Origin: an uncultured Alistipes sp.
GTDB taxonomy: Bacteria; Bacteroidota; Bacteroidia; Bacteroidales; Rikenellaceae
Length of the DNA: 58,242 nt
Assembly: GCA_944321765.1 (NCBI GenBank)
Contig: CALUMQ010000018.1
Location: forward strand, 1 to 58,242
Direction of reading: 5' to 3'
The position numbers were made by a program, and so were the translations under genes. This document shows, one piece after another, positions 5,476 to 15,008 of this stretch. How positions within the stretch are numbered: the stretch's first letter is position 1; the number at the start of each line of letters is the position of its first letter. The notes below the pieces were generated by a model that worked only from the letters and a program-made list of their open reading frames with translations, ran no database searches and was not told the DNA's origin.

Positions 5476-5572
5476 CAGCTGCGGCACGGAGCACGTAAAC
5501 CGTTAATAATCAGCACACTCTTTTCTTTTATTAAAAAATCTCAAAAAAATTTGAAATTTTTTTACTAAAAAC

Positions 5573-5603
5573 TTGCACACTTCGTTTTTCAACCTTATCT
5601 TTG
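5573..5603 (+). promoter_or_regulatory. Strong Bacteroidota promoter of small RNA candidate 1
   Basis: TTG at 5573-5575 and the perfect -7 box TATCTTTG at 5596-5603 are separated by 20 nt in an A/T-rich upstream region. No open reading frame with a credible start follows. Confidence 0.8.
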
Positions 5604-5655
5604 CAGCGAAGTTTTAAGGTTCATTTAGGTTAGTAGTTTTAGGTTGGTGAGGAAA
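5593..5655 (+). repeat. Direct repeat, copy 1 (promoter -7 box plus RNA leader)
   Basis: This 63-nt segment recurs at 6061-6124 with one substitution (CAGCGAAG against CAGTGAAG) and one inserted T (GGTTGGTGAGG against GGTTGGTTGAGG). The repeat spans the -7 box and the 5' part of the RNA and then stops abruptly. Upstream and downstream sequences are unrelated. Confidence 0.92.
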
Positions 5656-5699
5656 CTGTGGACAAGGAGCAATGTTCCAAGTCCGAGTTTCCTTTTTTT
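5608..5699 (+). ncRNA. Small RNA candidate 1 (about 92 nt, shares its leader with candidate 2)
   Basis: The predicted transcript starts a few nt after the -7 box at 5596-5603. Its first part, to about 5650, is U/G-rich, weakly structured, and carries TTTAGGTTAGTAG and TTTTAGGTTGG. It ends in a hairpin at 5651-5692 in which GGAAAC, GGAC and GGA pair in order with TCC, GTCC and GTTTCC, followed by seven T residues. That is a complete promoter, RNA and terminator unit without a coding frame. The leader is repeated nearly exactly at 6061-6124. I do not recognise an Rfam family. The start is inferred from promoter geometry. Confidence 0.68.
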
Positions 5700-6040
5700 G
5701 TACCCATACTGTCCACAAAGCATCACAACGAGGATTTTCTCTGCAACAAGACAACTTCCGTCCTCGCGTCTTCTCTTTTTTTTCACGGTCCCGCCCTTGG
5801 TCATCGAATCAAGACCCGACTCCCTACAAACCACATTTTCGGCTTTTTCCGTGCCGTAAAACACACCGCCGGAGTATGATCATACATACGATCGAATGTT
5901 ACGGGGCAACAGATCAGATGGCCGCCCACAGAAAACACAAAACCCTAAAAATCAGCAACAAAAACTACATCAGATGGTTTTCGGAGACATAGTACAATGT
6001 TACCAAATTGTTAAATATATTTAAAATATTCATAAAATAT
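5700..6040. other. Non-coding spacer between the two small RNA candidates
   Basis: No convincing gene is visible. Three overlapping short open frames on the plus strand and one on the minus strand have low-complexity products and no family resemblance. There is a perfect short palindrome GTATGATCATAC near 5874-5885 and, before the next promoter, a very A/T-rich tract at about 6000-6055. Confidence 0.5.
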
Positions 6041-6071
6041 TTGCATAATATATTTCAGACCCTTATCTTTG
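6041..6071 (+). promoter_or_regulatory. Strong Bacteroidota promoter of small RNA candidate 2
   Basis: TTG (within TTTGC) at 6041-6043 and the perfect TATCTTTG at 6064-6071 are separated by 20 nt, the same geometry as the candidate 1 promoter. The upstream sequence is A/T-rich, like an UP element. Confidence 0.82.
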
Positions 6072-6124
6072 CAGTGAAGTTTTAAGGTTCATTTAGGTTA
6101 GTAGTTTTAGGTTGGTTGAGGAAA
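6061..6124 (+). repeat. Direct repeat, copy 2 (promoter -7 box plus RNA leader)
   Basis: This is the second copy of the leader repeat found at 5593-5655, 468 bp downstream in the same orientation, with one substitution and one single-base insertion over 64 nt. Confidence 0.92.
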
Positions 6125-6274
6125 TCGGCAGGTTGCAACGGGTCTGACCCGCGGCTAAGACCACGGAGGCGGTGCTCGCCCCAAGGTCGAATACCTCCGA
6201 TAAAACCTCATTTGGAGGGGGTGGTTCCCCACCAAAGAAAAAGGTCACAGTCGAGAAGACTCTGACCTTTTTTT
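6076..6274 (+). ncRNA. Small structured RNA candidate 2 (about 199 nt)
   Basis: After the shared leader, the RNA contains several short perfect helices: CGGGT-CTG-ACCCG near 6137, GGCG-GTGCT-CGCC within a GGAGG/CCTCC pairing near 6163-6202, and GGTGG-TTCC-CCACC near 6220. It ends in a terminator at 6239-6274 where AAAGGTCA/AGTC pairs with GACT/TGACCTTT. No start codon with a credible frame is seen. The unit has its own consensus promoter and a terminator that works on paper in both directions. It could belong to a known Bacteroidales RNA family; I cannot tell which. Confidence 0.7.
6239..6274 (+). terminator. Terminator of small RNA 2, probably bidirectional
   Basis: A stem of AAAGGTCA and AGTC pairs with GACT and TGACCTTT around GAGAA, followed by T7 on the plus strand. 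Read on the minus strand the tail is TTTTTCTTT, so it may also stop transcription of the convergent lipoprotein gene at 6331-7101. Confidence 0.85.
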
Positions 6275-6330
6275 ATTTTCCACATGAATGCTTCGCACCG
6301 GGAACGTACTGCCGCCGCCCCGGGGAGGCC

Positions 6331-11365: not shown

Positions 11366-13483
11366 TTACCGGGAGCGCTTGCCCGCGCCCCATTTGGGGG
11401 TGATCGAGAGGAAGAACTCGGCATTGATGCCCGGCATCGGGCGTGCCAGCACCGAAAGATACTCTTCGTCGAAGAGGTTGTTGACGGCGGCCTTCAGCGA
11501 GAGATCGCACCACGGGAGCGCGAAGCGTTTCGTCACGGAGAGGTTGTTCATGAAATAGGGCGGAAGGTAGCCCGTGATGGTCACATCGTTGCTCGACATC
11601 GTGTAGCGCTGGCTGTAATAGCACCACTGGTAGAGCAACTCCCACGTACGCCAGGTCAGACGTCCCGAGACGGTCGACGACCAGAGCGGCTCGTAGGGAA
11701 GCTGCTTGCCCACCGACTGGTCGGCCGGGCTCATCTTCTCCCCCACGTTGATCGACGGCGCCCACGAGAAGGTGCCGTTCATGCCCAGCTTCCATTCACG
11801 CGCCAGCGCCACGTCGAGGGCCGCCTGCAGCTCCACGCCATAGGCGTGCACCTTCTTGACATTCACCGGCGAGAAGAAGCCCTTGGTCGTGGGCAGCCAC
11901 AGGATCCAGTCGTCGATGCGCTGATCGTACCACGAAGCCGAACCCGAGAGGGTGTAGCGCCCCTCGCGCCCCACGGCGAACGAGAGGCCCGTTTCGTAGG
12001 CCAGGCCGTGTTCGCTCCGCAGGTCGGGGTTGCCGCCCGGAAGGAAATAGAGGTCGTTGAGCGTCGGGAAGCGGTAGTTGCGCGACACGGAGGCCCGCAG
12101 AACGAGGTTGCCGCGCCGCGAAAGGAGGTAGTCGGCAAAGAGAGCCGGAATCGGCGCCCACTCGTCGCCGTACACCTCGCCGCGCAACACGGCCGAGAGG
12201 CCCAGCCGCTCGACGGGGCGCCACTTGACCGAGGCCGAGGCCGAAAGCTCGACACGCCCCTGATCGTATCCAACCACGGCGCGGTCGCCCTCCTGAAGAA
12301 TGATGTTCTTGTCGACGCTCGTGACCAGATGCTGGTAGGCGGCCAGCGATCCGGTGAAGAGCCACCGCCGCCCGATGGCATACTCGCCGTCGAACTGTCC
12401 GTAGAAGGTATCGACCCGGCTCCGCGAACGGGTCATCGAGGTCATGATGCCGTTGCCCGGATCACGCCGGTAGTCGTAGGCCATCCAGGTGTGGATGTAG
12501 CCGGCCCGCGCGCCGAGTTTCCAGTCGCTGCGCAGGTGGTCCCACGACACGACGCTGCGCAGCGTATGCTCCCGCTGCCGGTTCTCGAACTGCCGCTCTT
12601 CGGCATAGTCGGTCGTCAGCATCGGCAGCTCGCGGTTGGAGTTCACGTACCAAAGGTTCACGCCGAAGCGGTCACCGCGTCCGGTGTTGTAGTAGACCTC
12701 CTGCAGCAGGTGCAGGTCACGGAACGATCCGCTCCGGTTCCGCTCGACGGGATAGTACGACCCGATGATGTTCATCTCCTCGTCGTAGAGGTTCTCCTTC
12801 TTGTCGCGGTTGCGGTACTTGAAGTCGTTGGCCGAGGACTGACAGACGGCTCGTGTGGAGAGCTGCCAATGCTCATCGCCCCACGTCAGGCGCAGGAATT
12901 CGTCGAACGTGCGGAACATCCCCACCCCCTGGACATACTGGAGACCGAATCCGTCGGCCGCGGCCGGACGCGTCGAGAGCTTCACCAGACCGCCCAGACC
13001 ACCGCCCGTTTCGTTGACCGACGAGGAGCCGTGCAGCAGCGAGGCATCGTCGATGAAGTAGGCCGGGATCATCGAGAAGTCGGTCATGCCCAGCATGGGG
13101 TTGTTGATCCGCATGCCGTTCCACGTCACCTGCGTGTGCGAAGGGCCCGTGCCGCGGAACGAGACGGTCGAAAGCGTTGCACGTCCGTACTGCTTGACGA
13201 AGAGTGAGGAGTTGAACGTCAGTACGTCGGCCACCGAGAGGGCGATATTCTGGCGAAGGACCGTCGAATCGAAGCGCGTCTGGTCGACACCGATCGACTT
13301 CATCGGCCGCTGGCCCCAGACGGGCACCTCGCGGATGGCAATGGTCCGGGCGGCGGACTCCGCCTCGGGGGATCCGGACTGTGCGGCAAGCCCTCCGGGG
13401 AGAAGCAAAAACCCCGAGAGGCACGCGGCGCACGCCAGGCGGCGGAACAGGCGGAAAGATTGTTTCATGCGAAGGGTCGTCAT
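11366..13483 (-). CDS. btuB: TonB-dependent outer-membrane receptor, BtuB-like (cobalamin)
   Basis: This 705-residue receptor has a signal peptide (FRRLACAACLSGFLLLPGGLAAQ), a plug domain (VADVLTFNSSLFVKQYGRATLSTVSFRGTGPSHTQVTWNGMRINNPMLG) and a long beta barrel that ends in strands such as FFLSITPKWGAGKRSR. Family resemblance alone would give vitamin B12 or siderophore receptor. The cobalamin riboswitch ahead of the operon and the BtuG-like lipoprotein directly upstream make B12 the likely ligand. The start chosen at 13483 overlaps the btuG stop as ATGA, suggesting coupled translation. An inner Met at 13468 would also leave an intact signal peptide. Confidence 0.88.
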   Translation of the reverse strand: MTTLRMKQSFRLFRRLACAACLSGFLLLPGGLAAQSGSPEAESAARTIAIREVPVWGQRPMKSIGVDQTRFDSTVLRQNIALSVADVLTFNSSLFVKQYGRATLSTVSFRGTGPSHTQVTWNGMRINNPMLGMTDFSMIPAYFIDDASLLHGSSSVNETGGGLGGLVKLSTRPAAADGFGLQYVQGVGMFRTFDEFLRLTWGDEHWQLSTRAVCQSSANDFKYRNRDKKENLYDEEMNIIGSYYPVERNRSGSFRDLHLLQEVYYNTGRGDRFGVNLWYVNSNRELPMLTTDYAEERQFENRQREHTLRSVVSWDHLRSDWKLGARAGYIHTWMAYDYRRDPGNGIMTSMTRSRSRVDTFYGQFDGEYAIGRRWLFTGSLAAYQHLVTSVDKNIILQEGDRAVVGYDQGRVELSASASVKWRPVERLGLSAVLRGEVYGDEWAPIPALFADYLLSRRGNLVLRASVSRNYRFPTLNDLYFLPGGNPDLRSEHGLAYETGLSFAVGREGRYTLSGSASWYDQRIDDWILWLPTTKGFFSPVNVKKVHAYGVELQAALDVALAREWKLGMNGTFSWAPSINVGEKMSPADQSVGKQLPYEPLWSSTVSGRLTWRTWELLYQWCYYSQRYTMSSNDVTITGYLPPYFMNNLSVTKRFALPWCDLSLKAAVNNLFDEEYLSVLARPMPGINAEFFLSITPKWGAGKRSR

Positions 13484-14580
13484 TGTTTCCAACAGAAGGC
13501 TCCGGGGATAATTCCGACATAGAACCGGTCGATCAACTCGCCGTCGGCCGCATAGCGGTAGACGATGCCCTGCTGCTGGTAGTCGATGGCATCGGCCACG
13601 TAGACGTCGCCGTTCGACGGATCGACCGTCAGTCCGTAGTATTTCGTATCCTGGTAGGCGATGAAGGGCTGCGTGGGAAGGCTCCGGGCTTCGACCGGCA
13701 TGCGCCAGATGTCGCGGTTGATCCAGTAGAGGGTGTCGCCCGCGCCGTTGAGCTGGATCTCCGAGGGTGCGTCGCCCAGGCTGAAGGTGAACTGCCGCAC
13801 GACATGCATCGTTTCGGGATCGATGCAGTAGAGCGACGGAGCCTCATAGCCGTAGGGGCTCCCCTCATACCCGCCGTCGGTGATTGTCCAGAGGAGGTTG
13901 TTGCGGTCGAGCACCAGCGATGTGGGCTGGATGCCGACCTGCAGTTCGTCGACCACGCTATCCGTCTCGGTATCGATCTTCAGAATGCGGTTCTGGTACG
14001 ACCAGCAGTTCACGAAGAGGTATTTGCCGTACTGCACCATCTGCTCCGTGGAGCCCGACTCCATGCTCATCCCCGGGCATTCGATGTAGCCCGTGATTTC
14101 GTAACGCCGGGGATTGACGATGAAGATGCGGTTGTCCCAGATCTGCGTGACGTAGGCTTTTTCGTCCGAAAGGAAGTGGATGTAGCGCGGCGAGGTCAGA
14201 CCCGTGATGCGTCCCACCTCGCGGGCCGTCGCGAGGTCGATGGCGAAGATCACGTGCGAATTGTTCACCACGACCCATCCGACGTCGTTGCGGATGGTCA
14301 TCGACTGGGCGACGTCGCCCAGCTTGAAGCCGTTCGAGCGGTAGAAGATGCTGTTCTCGACCTGCCGCGTCGCGGGATCATAAAACGACAGGGTGGCATT
14401 CCCGTACTGGAAATTGCCCTCGTTGGTGATGAAGAGTCCCGAATCGGCCAGCGTGAACTCCTCCATCGTGCCATAGTCCCACTTCATGCATCCGCCCGAG
14501 GCGGCCACACACAGCCACACGCCGCACAGTTTCGCGACAAGGCTCCTCCAGGGGATTGAACGACGTTTCAAAACATCCAT
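13480..14580 (-). CDS. btuG: Surface lipoprotein, DUF5074/YncE-like beta-propeller, probable cobalamin-binding BtuG
   Basis: This 366-residue lipoprotein has lipid attachment at Cys31 in the lipobox ASGGC. The mature part is built from repeated propeller blades, with ENQ/NEGNFQYGNATLSFYDPATRQV, QSMTIRNDVGWVVVNNSHVIFAIDLATAREVGRI and later blades of the same form. Bacteroides BtuG proteins are seven-bladed propellers on the cell surface that bind B12 extremely tightly and pass it to BtuB. The order riboswitch, propeller lipoprotein, TonB receptor matches those loci. Earlier in-frame Met codons (14595, 14688) lie in or near the riboswitch expression platform, so 14580 is preferred. The cobalamin role is inferred from context. 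Confidence 0.82.
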   Translation of the reverse strand: MDVLKRRSIPWRSLVAKLCGVWLCVAASGGCMKWDYGTMEEFTLADSGLFITNEGNFQYGNATLSFYDPATRQVENSIFYRSNGFKLGDVAQSMTIRNDVGWVVVNNSHVIFAIDLATAREVGRITGLTSPRYIHFLSDEKAYVTQIWDNRIFIVNPRRYEITGYIECPGMSMESGSTEQMVQYGKYLFVNCWSYQNRILKIDTETDSVVDELQVGIQPTSLVLDRNNLLWTITDGGYEGSPYGYEAPSLYCIDPETMHVVRQFTFSLGDAPSEIQLNGAGDTLYWINRDIWRMPVEARSLPTQPFIAYQDTKYYGLTVDPSNGDVYVADAIDYQQQGIVYRYAADGELIDRFYVGIIPGAFCWKQ

Positions 14581-14737
14581 ATCCGTAACGACCATTTTCC
14601 GCGGCGCCGCCCTCCGATGAGGAAGCGCCGCCCTGCCGCCTGCCGGGAGGTCCGGGCATGGAGAACCGACTGAATGCGTGGAGATCACACGGTGCGATTT
14701 CTGCCTGAAACCCGCAGGAGCAAATCATGCAACAAAG

Positions 14738-14932
14738 GCAAGGCCGGTCTTCTGACTCGTTCCGTCGGCCGCGCCTTCCCGGTCGAAACCAGTGGCAGAG
14801 AGTGCGGCAGGCGACGCGGCCCTGCACGGGGCAGGGCGGCATGGAAGGAACTCACAGCAGCAGGTACTGTTCCGGATTTGCACCGGATTCCCGTTTCACC
14901 GGCCGGGAGTCTTCCCGGCGGAGGAACCTTGC
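14738..14932 (-). promoter_or_regulatory. Cobalamin (adenosylcobalamin) riboswitch
   Basis: The minus strand shows the hallmark elements. P1 pairs GCAAGG (14927-14932) with CCTTGC (14738-14743). The core has CGGTGAAACGGGAATCCGGTG with CAAATCCGGAACAGTACC and CTGCTGCTGTGAG, and the B12-box region AGTCAGAAGACCGGCC lies at the 3' side. It sits upstream of btuG and btuB and should reduce their expression when B12 is plentiful. It lies 158 nt from the btuG ATG, leaving room for an expression platform. Confidence 0.93.
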
Positions 14933-14936
14933 GGGG

Positions 14937-14944
14937 CAAAGATA
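14937..14944 (-). promoter_or_regulatory. -7 promoter box upstream of the cobalamin riboswitch
   Basis: A perfect TATCTTTG lies just 5 nt before the P1 stem of the riboswitch on the minus strand, the right place for transcription to start at the riboswitch 5' end. No clear -33 TTG is seen. Confidence 0.65.
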
Positions 14945-15008
14945 GTGAAATTCCCGCAGATTCCCCGCCCCGCAGGCCGAATGGGGTATAAAAAAGAGGA
15001 TAAAAATT

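Follow-up and report, generated by a model that had tools for sequence, protein, structure and literature searches.

Two putative small RNA genes with a shared working module are well supported by sequence comparison in the window, which is the whole stretch of 58,242 nucleotides from an uncultured Alistipes sp. that was analyzed here. The comparison demonstrates the anatomy of the two genes, the structure of the RNA 2 body and a module conserved from genus to genus and from scaffold to scaffold, the core of which is found again in RNA B, a second family of RNAs. Because this constant leader stretch persists in related genera and shares its core with RNA B, it is probably the working part. The two units lie head to tail on the plus strand, at positions 5573-5698 and 6041-6274 as read directly from the letters, and have the following features:

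5573-5603, plus strand: RNA 1 promoter, with TTG at 5573-5575, 20 nt, and TATCTTTG at 5596-5603
5608-5648, plus strand: RNA 1 leader, the constant module of 41 nt, from the leader pattern and the search of family genomes
5649-5698, plus strand: RNA 1 body of type 1, a terminator hairpin and a U run (fold z -3.08)
6041-6071, plus strand: RNA 2 promoter, with TTG at 6041-6043, 20 nt, and TATCTTTG at 6064-6071
6076-6117, plus strand: RNA 2 leader, the constant module of 42 nt, from direct reading, pattern search and comparison of copies
6118-6209, plus strand: RNA 2 body, a three-way junction with P1 (GAGG/CCTC), P2 and the hairpins P3 and P4, from covariation
6212-6235, plus strand: additional hairpin of RNA 2, from folding; a similar GGGGUGGUUCCC is found in some relatives
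6238-6274, plus strand: intrinsic terminator of RNA 2, an inverted repeat (6238-6252 / 6258-6272, 93% complementary) with a U run

In both units, TTG is followed by exactly 20 nt, TATCTTTG and then GAAGTTTTAAGGTTCATTTAGGTTAGTAGTTTTAGGTTGGT, and the promoters with identical 20-nt spacing claimed by the sequence-only reading could thus be read in each of them. We take the TTG/TAnnTTTG promoter class to be the housekeeping-type class named σABfr. The block common to both units, CCTTATCTTTGCAG(C/T)GAAG...GGTTGGT(T)GAGGAAA, has lengths of 63 and 64 nt and differs by one substitution and one inserted T, exactly as had been stated; a repeat finder paired 5545-5648 with 6013-6116 at 79%. Within the leader, half-sites of the form AGGUUrGU are repeated, as seen by direct reading. 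The units diverge after GAGGAAA, and the 3' parts are different, as claimed: that of unit 1 is a single bare terminator hairpin with a U run, comparable to hairpins of differing sequence in relatives, whereas the predicted fold of unit 2 (z -3.81) has a three-way junction and, in addition, another hairpin and a terminator. The leader pattern was found at these two places only in the genome from which the window derives, with up to three mismatches allowed. The suggestion that the leader is single-stranded found no support beyond what base composition gives: in the predicted transcripts, its mean unpaired probability was 0.512, and the same bodies with shuffled leaders gave 0.504, the real leader being higher in 62 of 120 cases. 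The family had not been recognized from the letters, and a cmscan search against Rfam over 5480-6330 likewise identified nothing at the gathering thresholds. Relaxing the search to an E-value of 10 gave chance-level matches only, the lowest E being 0.51 at a score far under the gathering score of that family.

Elsewhere in the window, a cobalamin riboswitch (85.3 bits) was identified at 14725-14946 on the minus strand, upstream of two open reading frames on the same strand (13480-14688 and 11366-13492), the latter of which resembles a TonB-dependent receptor by eye. On another contig of the same genome (C6, locus L262), a superoxide dismutase-like open reading frame on the minus strand from position 2045 apparently runs into a rubredoxin-like C-terminal segment, also as judged by eye.

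The leader was kept in related genomes, as a search of Alistipes genomes proposed at the outset had been meant to reveal. With up to three mismatches it was detected in 102 of 200 family genomes and in 4 of 22 genera, and these matches are beyond chance because the reversed 30-nt leader pattern gave none in the same 200 genomes. No leader was found in the 244 genomes sampled from other families within the order. A wider distribution was rejected: the 22-nt core pattern had two matches in 292 other-family genomes, both of them without a promoter, and its reversed control matched in three genomes. The exact leader 26-mer was present in at least 118 stretches, and the 80 matches listed belonged to Alistipes, Tidjanibacter or other Rikenellaceae. 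Identity in the loci found by this exact 26-mer is given by construction; the searches with three mismatches and with the body only are less biased. The latter identified 21 genomes with a type-2 body and no leader match; 20 were fetched, and all 20 contained the leader, with differences in the 38-nt part confined to the U run after UUCA and, in L222, one extra A. An origin from phages was rejected, with the exact leader pattern in none of the viral contigs and RNA B in one.

An identical 38-mer was recovered in 136 of 177 distinct leader copies; in 29 of the remaining 41, the only deviation is in homopolymer length. The length of the U run between the submodules varies (CAU2-5AGG in the leader RNAs, hereafter RNA A), and a similar run is seen in RNA B. 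In all 177 copies, GAAG is preceded at 4-5 nt by a TAnnTTTG box, and the box at 19-21 nt by a TTG, with a spacing of exactly 20 in 163 of them; the promoter was no part of the selection of these copies, and the selecting pattern admits certain leader variants only. One or two leader copies were found per genome in the 200-genome search, and one genome had three exact core copies. Where two leaders lie within 2 kb of each other, type 1 precedes type 2 in 20 of 21 pairs as classified by a motif rule, the window pair included. The genes next to the leader loci vary: 450 mechanically called open reading frames fell into 228 clusters, the largest of which was represented at 24 of the 136 loci that were kept after exact duplicates and copies near contig ends had been dropped. 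Since the neighboring genes differ, action in trans is likely.

Behind this constant leader, the bodies change. Short bodies with one or two hairpins come after the leader in 20 regions from the three other genera, and a two-hairpin body (GAAACAGGG...) is also present in Tidjanibacter contigs. The 5' half of the leader has diverged in genus g16 and the leader is shortened in genus g9, where L237 contains a nearby second copy with a shortened leader and two repeats of a U-run-AGGUUAGUAG unit. A tRNA-Leu-like sequence was seen by eye downstream in 5 of 11 regions of genus g20. The idea of a common module on different scaffolds, put forward from the two window units, is thus supported at the sequence level by a leader kept in four genera while the bodies change, by the promoter in 177/177 copies and by the varied neighbors.

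The body of RNA 2, a three-way junction not described before, covaries strongly in the alignments of related sequences, and the covariance model proposed for it could be built. In the MAFFT alignment A1 of 34 sequences (35 of 95 type-2 copies chosen for easy alignment, minus L021, which has a long P3), 97.2% of the cells were paired and 12 of 29 pairs showed changes on both sides, with a covariation of 0.298, where shuffling gave 0.150 and sliding no more than 0.104. RNAalifold recovered the same core from A1, without P1. In alignment A2, which consists of 97 matches from 99 chosen loci fitted to the model and therefore leans towards it, 96.6% of the cells were paired, 21 of 29 pairs were changed on both sides and the covariation was 0.407 versus 0.179. 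The conserved junction segments are CUAAGAC, GGUGCUC and GUCGAAUACC. Model R1 matched the window with an E-value of 5.8e-24, the window being a training sequence, and the body-2 model identified 89 of the 200 family genomes, all of the same genus as the window, under stricter search filters by which some weak matches were lost. Three type-2 bodies (L102, L109, L104) have a large insertion in hairpin P3, the length of which therefore seems to be free. We also considered 6S RNA, which is a long hairpin with a central bubble; this candidate was rejected, since body 2 is instead a covarying three-way junction, and no match to RF00013 was obtained in the genome of the window, with a model that also misses a Bacteroides control genome. 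Large lists of candidate RNAs, such as that of PMC8040213, could already include body 2.

RNA B was found when 16 genomes were searched for sites complementary to the core: one recurrent locus turned out to have an RNA gene on its other strand. RNA B contains an identical 16-mer, GGUUAGUAGUUUUAGG, and carries the leader core GGUUAGUAGUUUU; the elements AAGGUU, UUCAUUU and GGUUAGUAGUUUU follow each other in the same order in RNA A and RNA B, with an additional AGG in many RNA B copies. The RNA B pattern was detected in 72 of 268 family genomes and in 11 of 22 genera, as compared to one genome for the reversed control, and at least one of the pattern matches is a coding chance match (L423). The longer constant region was read in 10 of the 11 genera, genus g9 not being among those fetched. 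Of 52 occurrences, 48 were kept, the others being a duplicate (L397), the coding chance match in L423, a copy without the 5' part (L429) and a copy with a shorter U run (L384). Examples are:

L388, about 1430-1600: RNA B
L382, 1448-1615, minus strand: RNA B
L336, 12590-12735: RNA B
L413-L432 except L423: RNA B in other genera

An identical 34-mer, TTTCTTCATTTATTTAAGTTTGGGTTAGTAGTTT, the first 21 letters of which lay outside the search pattern, is present in 44 of the 48 distinct copies, and in three of the other four the difference is one of run length. The strict form of a σ54-like motif precedes 38 of the 48 copies; a looser pattern was found in 40 of 48, as compared to 18 of 736 random windows from the same loci that were not matched for intergenic sequence, and seven copies have neither. 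The core sits well behind this promoter motif, and in the alignment of the 48 copies it is followed by a terminator hairpin, the pairs of which covary. The neighbors of RNA B vary. No Rfam match was obtained for the RNA B loci tested, and for one copy nothing was found up to an E-value of 10. The pattern, which misses variants, was not found in the genome of the window, which is 88.6% complete. In L382 and L336, which were read at length, RNA B follows an apparent superoxide dismutase gene, as judged by eye. In 5 of the 48 copies (L393, L404, L406, L407, L429), a piece of 12-20 nt from the core region is found again in reverse complement, 62-97 nt beyond the 34-mer, with letters that by eye co-change between species.

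The account that we tentatively prefer, at somewhat less than an even chance, is that the window encodes two trans-acting small RNAs, the constant 5' module of which is bound by a common RNA-binding protein and the 3' scaffold of which is exchangeable. Each RNA would be made from a separate housekeeping-type promoter and end at a separate terminator; the module GAAGUUUUAAGGUUCAUnAGGUUAGUAGUUUUAGGUUrG would be the business end, and the 3' part, a terminator hairpin in RNA 1 and a three-way junction in RNA 2, would be the scaffold. The RNAs would be transcribed and act in trans, and by recognizing the module the protein would have them as its ligand or sponge, or would carry them to targets. Our slight leaning towards a protein partner comes from the tolerated differences in spacer length, the repeated half-sites and the occurrence of one core on more than one scaffold; variation in the length of a U run is less well tolerated by a continuous antisense helix than by separate protein sites. 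We searched for candidate partners and for traces of a sponge. Hfq was identified in none of 17 genomes, including that of the window, with 5 of 14 controls positive. Long sense copies of the core in mRNAs were not recognized in 16 genomes, and the sense half-site AGGTTAGTAG was not enriched across about 0.95 Mb, with 2 occurrences versus 0-8 in shuffles; no sponge regulon is therefore visible. Most other pieces were not enriched either, and a sense half-site regulon was rejected.

By analogy with FopS and GibS, the constant module might instead be a base-pairing seed that represses several mRNAs at their start regions, with the 3' parts serving to stabilize the RNAs. We regard this as a real possibility that falls clearly short of an even chance, and the precedent of these two RNAs (PMC11697453, PMC7366714) speaks for pairing: FopS is comparable in layout and pairs near start codons, and GibS has two seeds. 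The complements of the module, CUAACCUAAAUGAACCUU for the window leader and CUUAAAUAAAUGAAGAAACC for RNA B, also read like start regions. In a first pass, complements to the 5' part of the leader were enriched in start regions (12 versus 2.1 at 9-mers). However, the enrichment was not replicated in 526 further start regions (0 versus 0.80) and was equally strong in leader-less Bacteroidales controls (4 versus 0.59 in 266 start regions), and it was therefore rejected, so that the target-binding or protein-binding module suggested by the sequence-only reading gained no support from this enrichment. The 3' part of the leader showed no such enrichment, and no strong match was seen in eight SusC-like start regions, the reading frames of which were found by motif. 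For RNA B, three start regions scored at least 36, as compared to none in 14 of 15 shuffles; these scores are given little weight because every start region holds AUG and CAU was not preserved in the shuffles. For the 10-mer TTAAGGTTCA, 5 occurrences compare to at most 4 in 12 shuffles, in DNA where two or more leaders (L028 and L030 among them) were left unmasked. A recurrent site complementary to the core at 16 or more of 19 positions was not found in 16 genomes, with G-U pairs and bulges disallowed, and RRM_1 proteins were not found in the 16 same-genus genomes searched, including that of the window (88.6% complete), whereas 4 of 10 other Bacteroidales were positive. A long antisense target was rejected as well: complements with up to three mismatches, with no G-U pairs or bulges allowed, were mainly leaders, leader variants and RNA B, and the other places, which were partly inspected, were single and non-recurrent. 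Pairing with rRNA was also rejected, with a best score of 24.5 in a shuffle range of 22-31 (one strand, in a 5.9-kb locus with the 23S gene of a relative); a match to the LSU model was not obtained in the genome of the window.

It is improbable that RNA 2 is mainly a structured RNA in which the three-way junction binds a ligand or a protein, the leader being a 5' end shared through gene duplication. The strong covariation and the invariant junction residues would fit such a role, but the leader varies less than body 2 and has a wider spread, as found with a stricter body search that loses weak matches, and in other genera it stands before other bodies. Even less credible, and in our judgment very unlikely, is that the conserved block acts as DNA, as a promoter or initially transcribed region with short transcripts as by-products. 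The block begins at the promoter in 177/177 copies, as this would predict, but the core of RNA B is located well behind a different promoter motif, and the body structure and the terminators are conserved.

We also compared the RNAs to known systems. CsrB and RsmY are sponge RNAs with repeated short motifs, a GGA in the loop and CsrA as partner. The window RNAs similarly have repeated short motifs and probably act in trans, but the motif is AGGUUrGU rather than a loop GGA, as judged by eye, and no sign of a sponge regulon was seen. Qrr and GlmY/GlmZ are σ54-dependent sibling RNAs, and RNA B resembles them in that most copies have σ54-like motifs and that related RNAs share a module, whereas the window RNAs carry a housekeeping-type promoter; we know of no sequence relation to Qrr or GlmY/GlmZ.

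The closest analogs, by layout alone, appear to be FopS and GibS. Their host is described as being without classical RNA chaperones (PMC11697453, PMC7366714), and FopS of Bacteroides thetaiotaomicron has a single-stranded 5' stretch with a 41-nt constant motif, a variable 3' part, a terminator hairpin, pairing near start codons and 12-15 copies with a σABfr-type promoter, a name also used there (PMC11697453); two seeds are described for GibS (PMC7366714). The likeness thus includes the order Bacteroidales, the multiple copies, the constant 5' region, the variable 3' part, the terminator hairpin and the promoter type, and RNA 1 has this very layout: behind a TAnnTTTG promoter, a constant 5' region leads into an intrinsic terminator hairpin. 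In contrast, RNA 2 adds a structured three-way junction, the window-type leader is present in one or two copies per genome (three exact cores in one) rather than the 12-15 given for FopS, the sister RNA B has a σ54-like motif, and an RRM_1 protein of the RbpB type was not found in the 16 same-genus genomes. FopS and GibS were not matched by cmscan up to an E-value of 10, in an Rfam release from which FopS may be absent.

Among the literature matches listed, none reported small RNAs of Alistipes or Rikenellaceae, and none of the papers holding stretches of the core letters was on this subject by title. The Bacteroidota small RNA papers among them, as far as the listed records tell, concern Bacteroides (GibS, FopS/RbpB and others) and an RNA-binding protein of Porphyromonas. 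We consider it rather doubtful, although conceivable, that the two families together represent a post-transcriptional regulon across the Rikenellaceae, in which one near-invariant code, GGUUAGUAGUUUU, would be combined with interchangeable scaffolds, two promoter classes (housekeeping for RNA A and σ54-like for RNA B) and a global RNA-binding partner, in a lineage in which searches for Hfq and RRM proteins found none. The findings add a new RNA with a three-way junction and, beside it, a second RNA family open to annotation in many genomes, and the near-invariant module is directly usable as bait in pull-down experiments. They bear on the small RNA networks of Bacteroidota without Hfq: a near-invariant RNA module is kept here by a further lineage, one in which the same-genus genomes searched yielded neither Hfq nor RRM_1.
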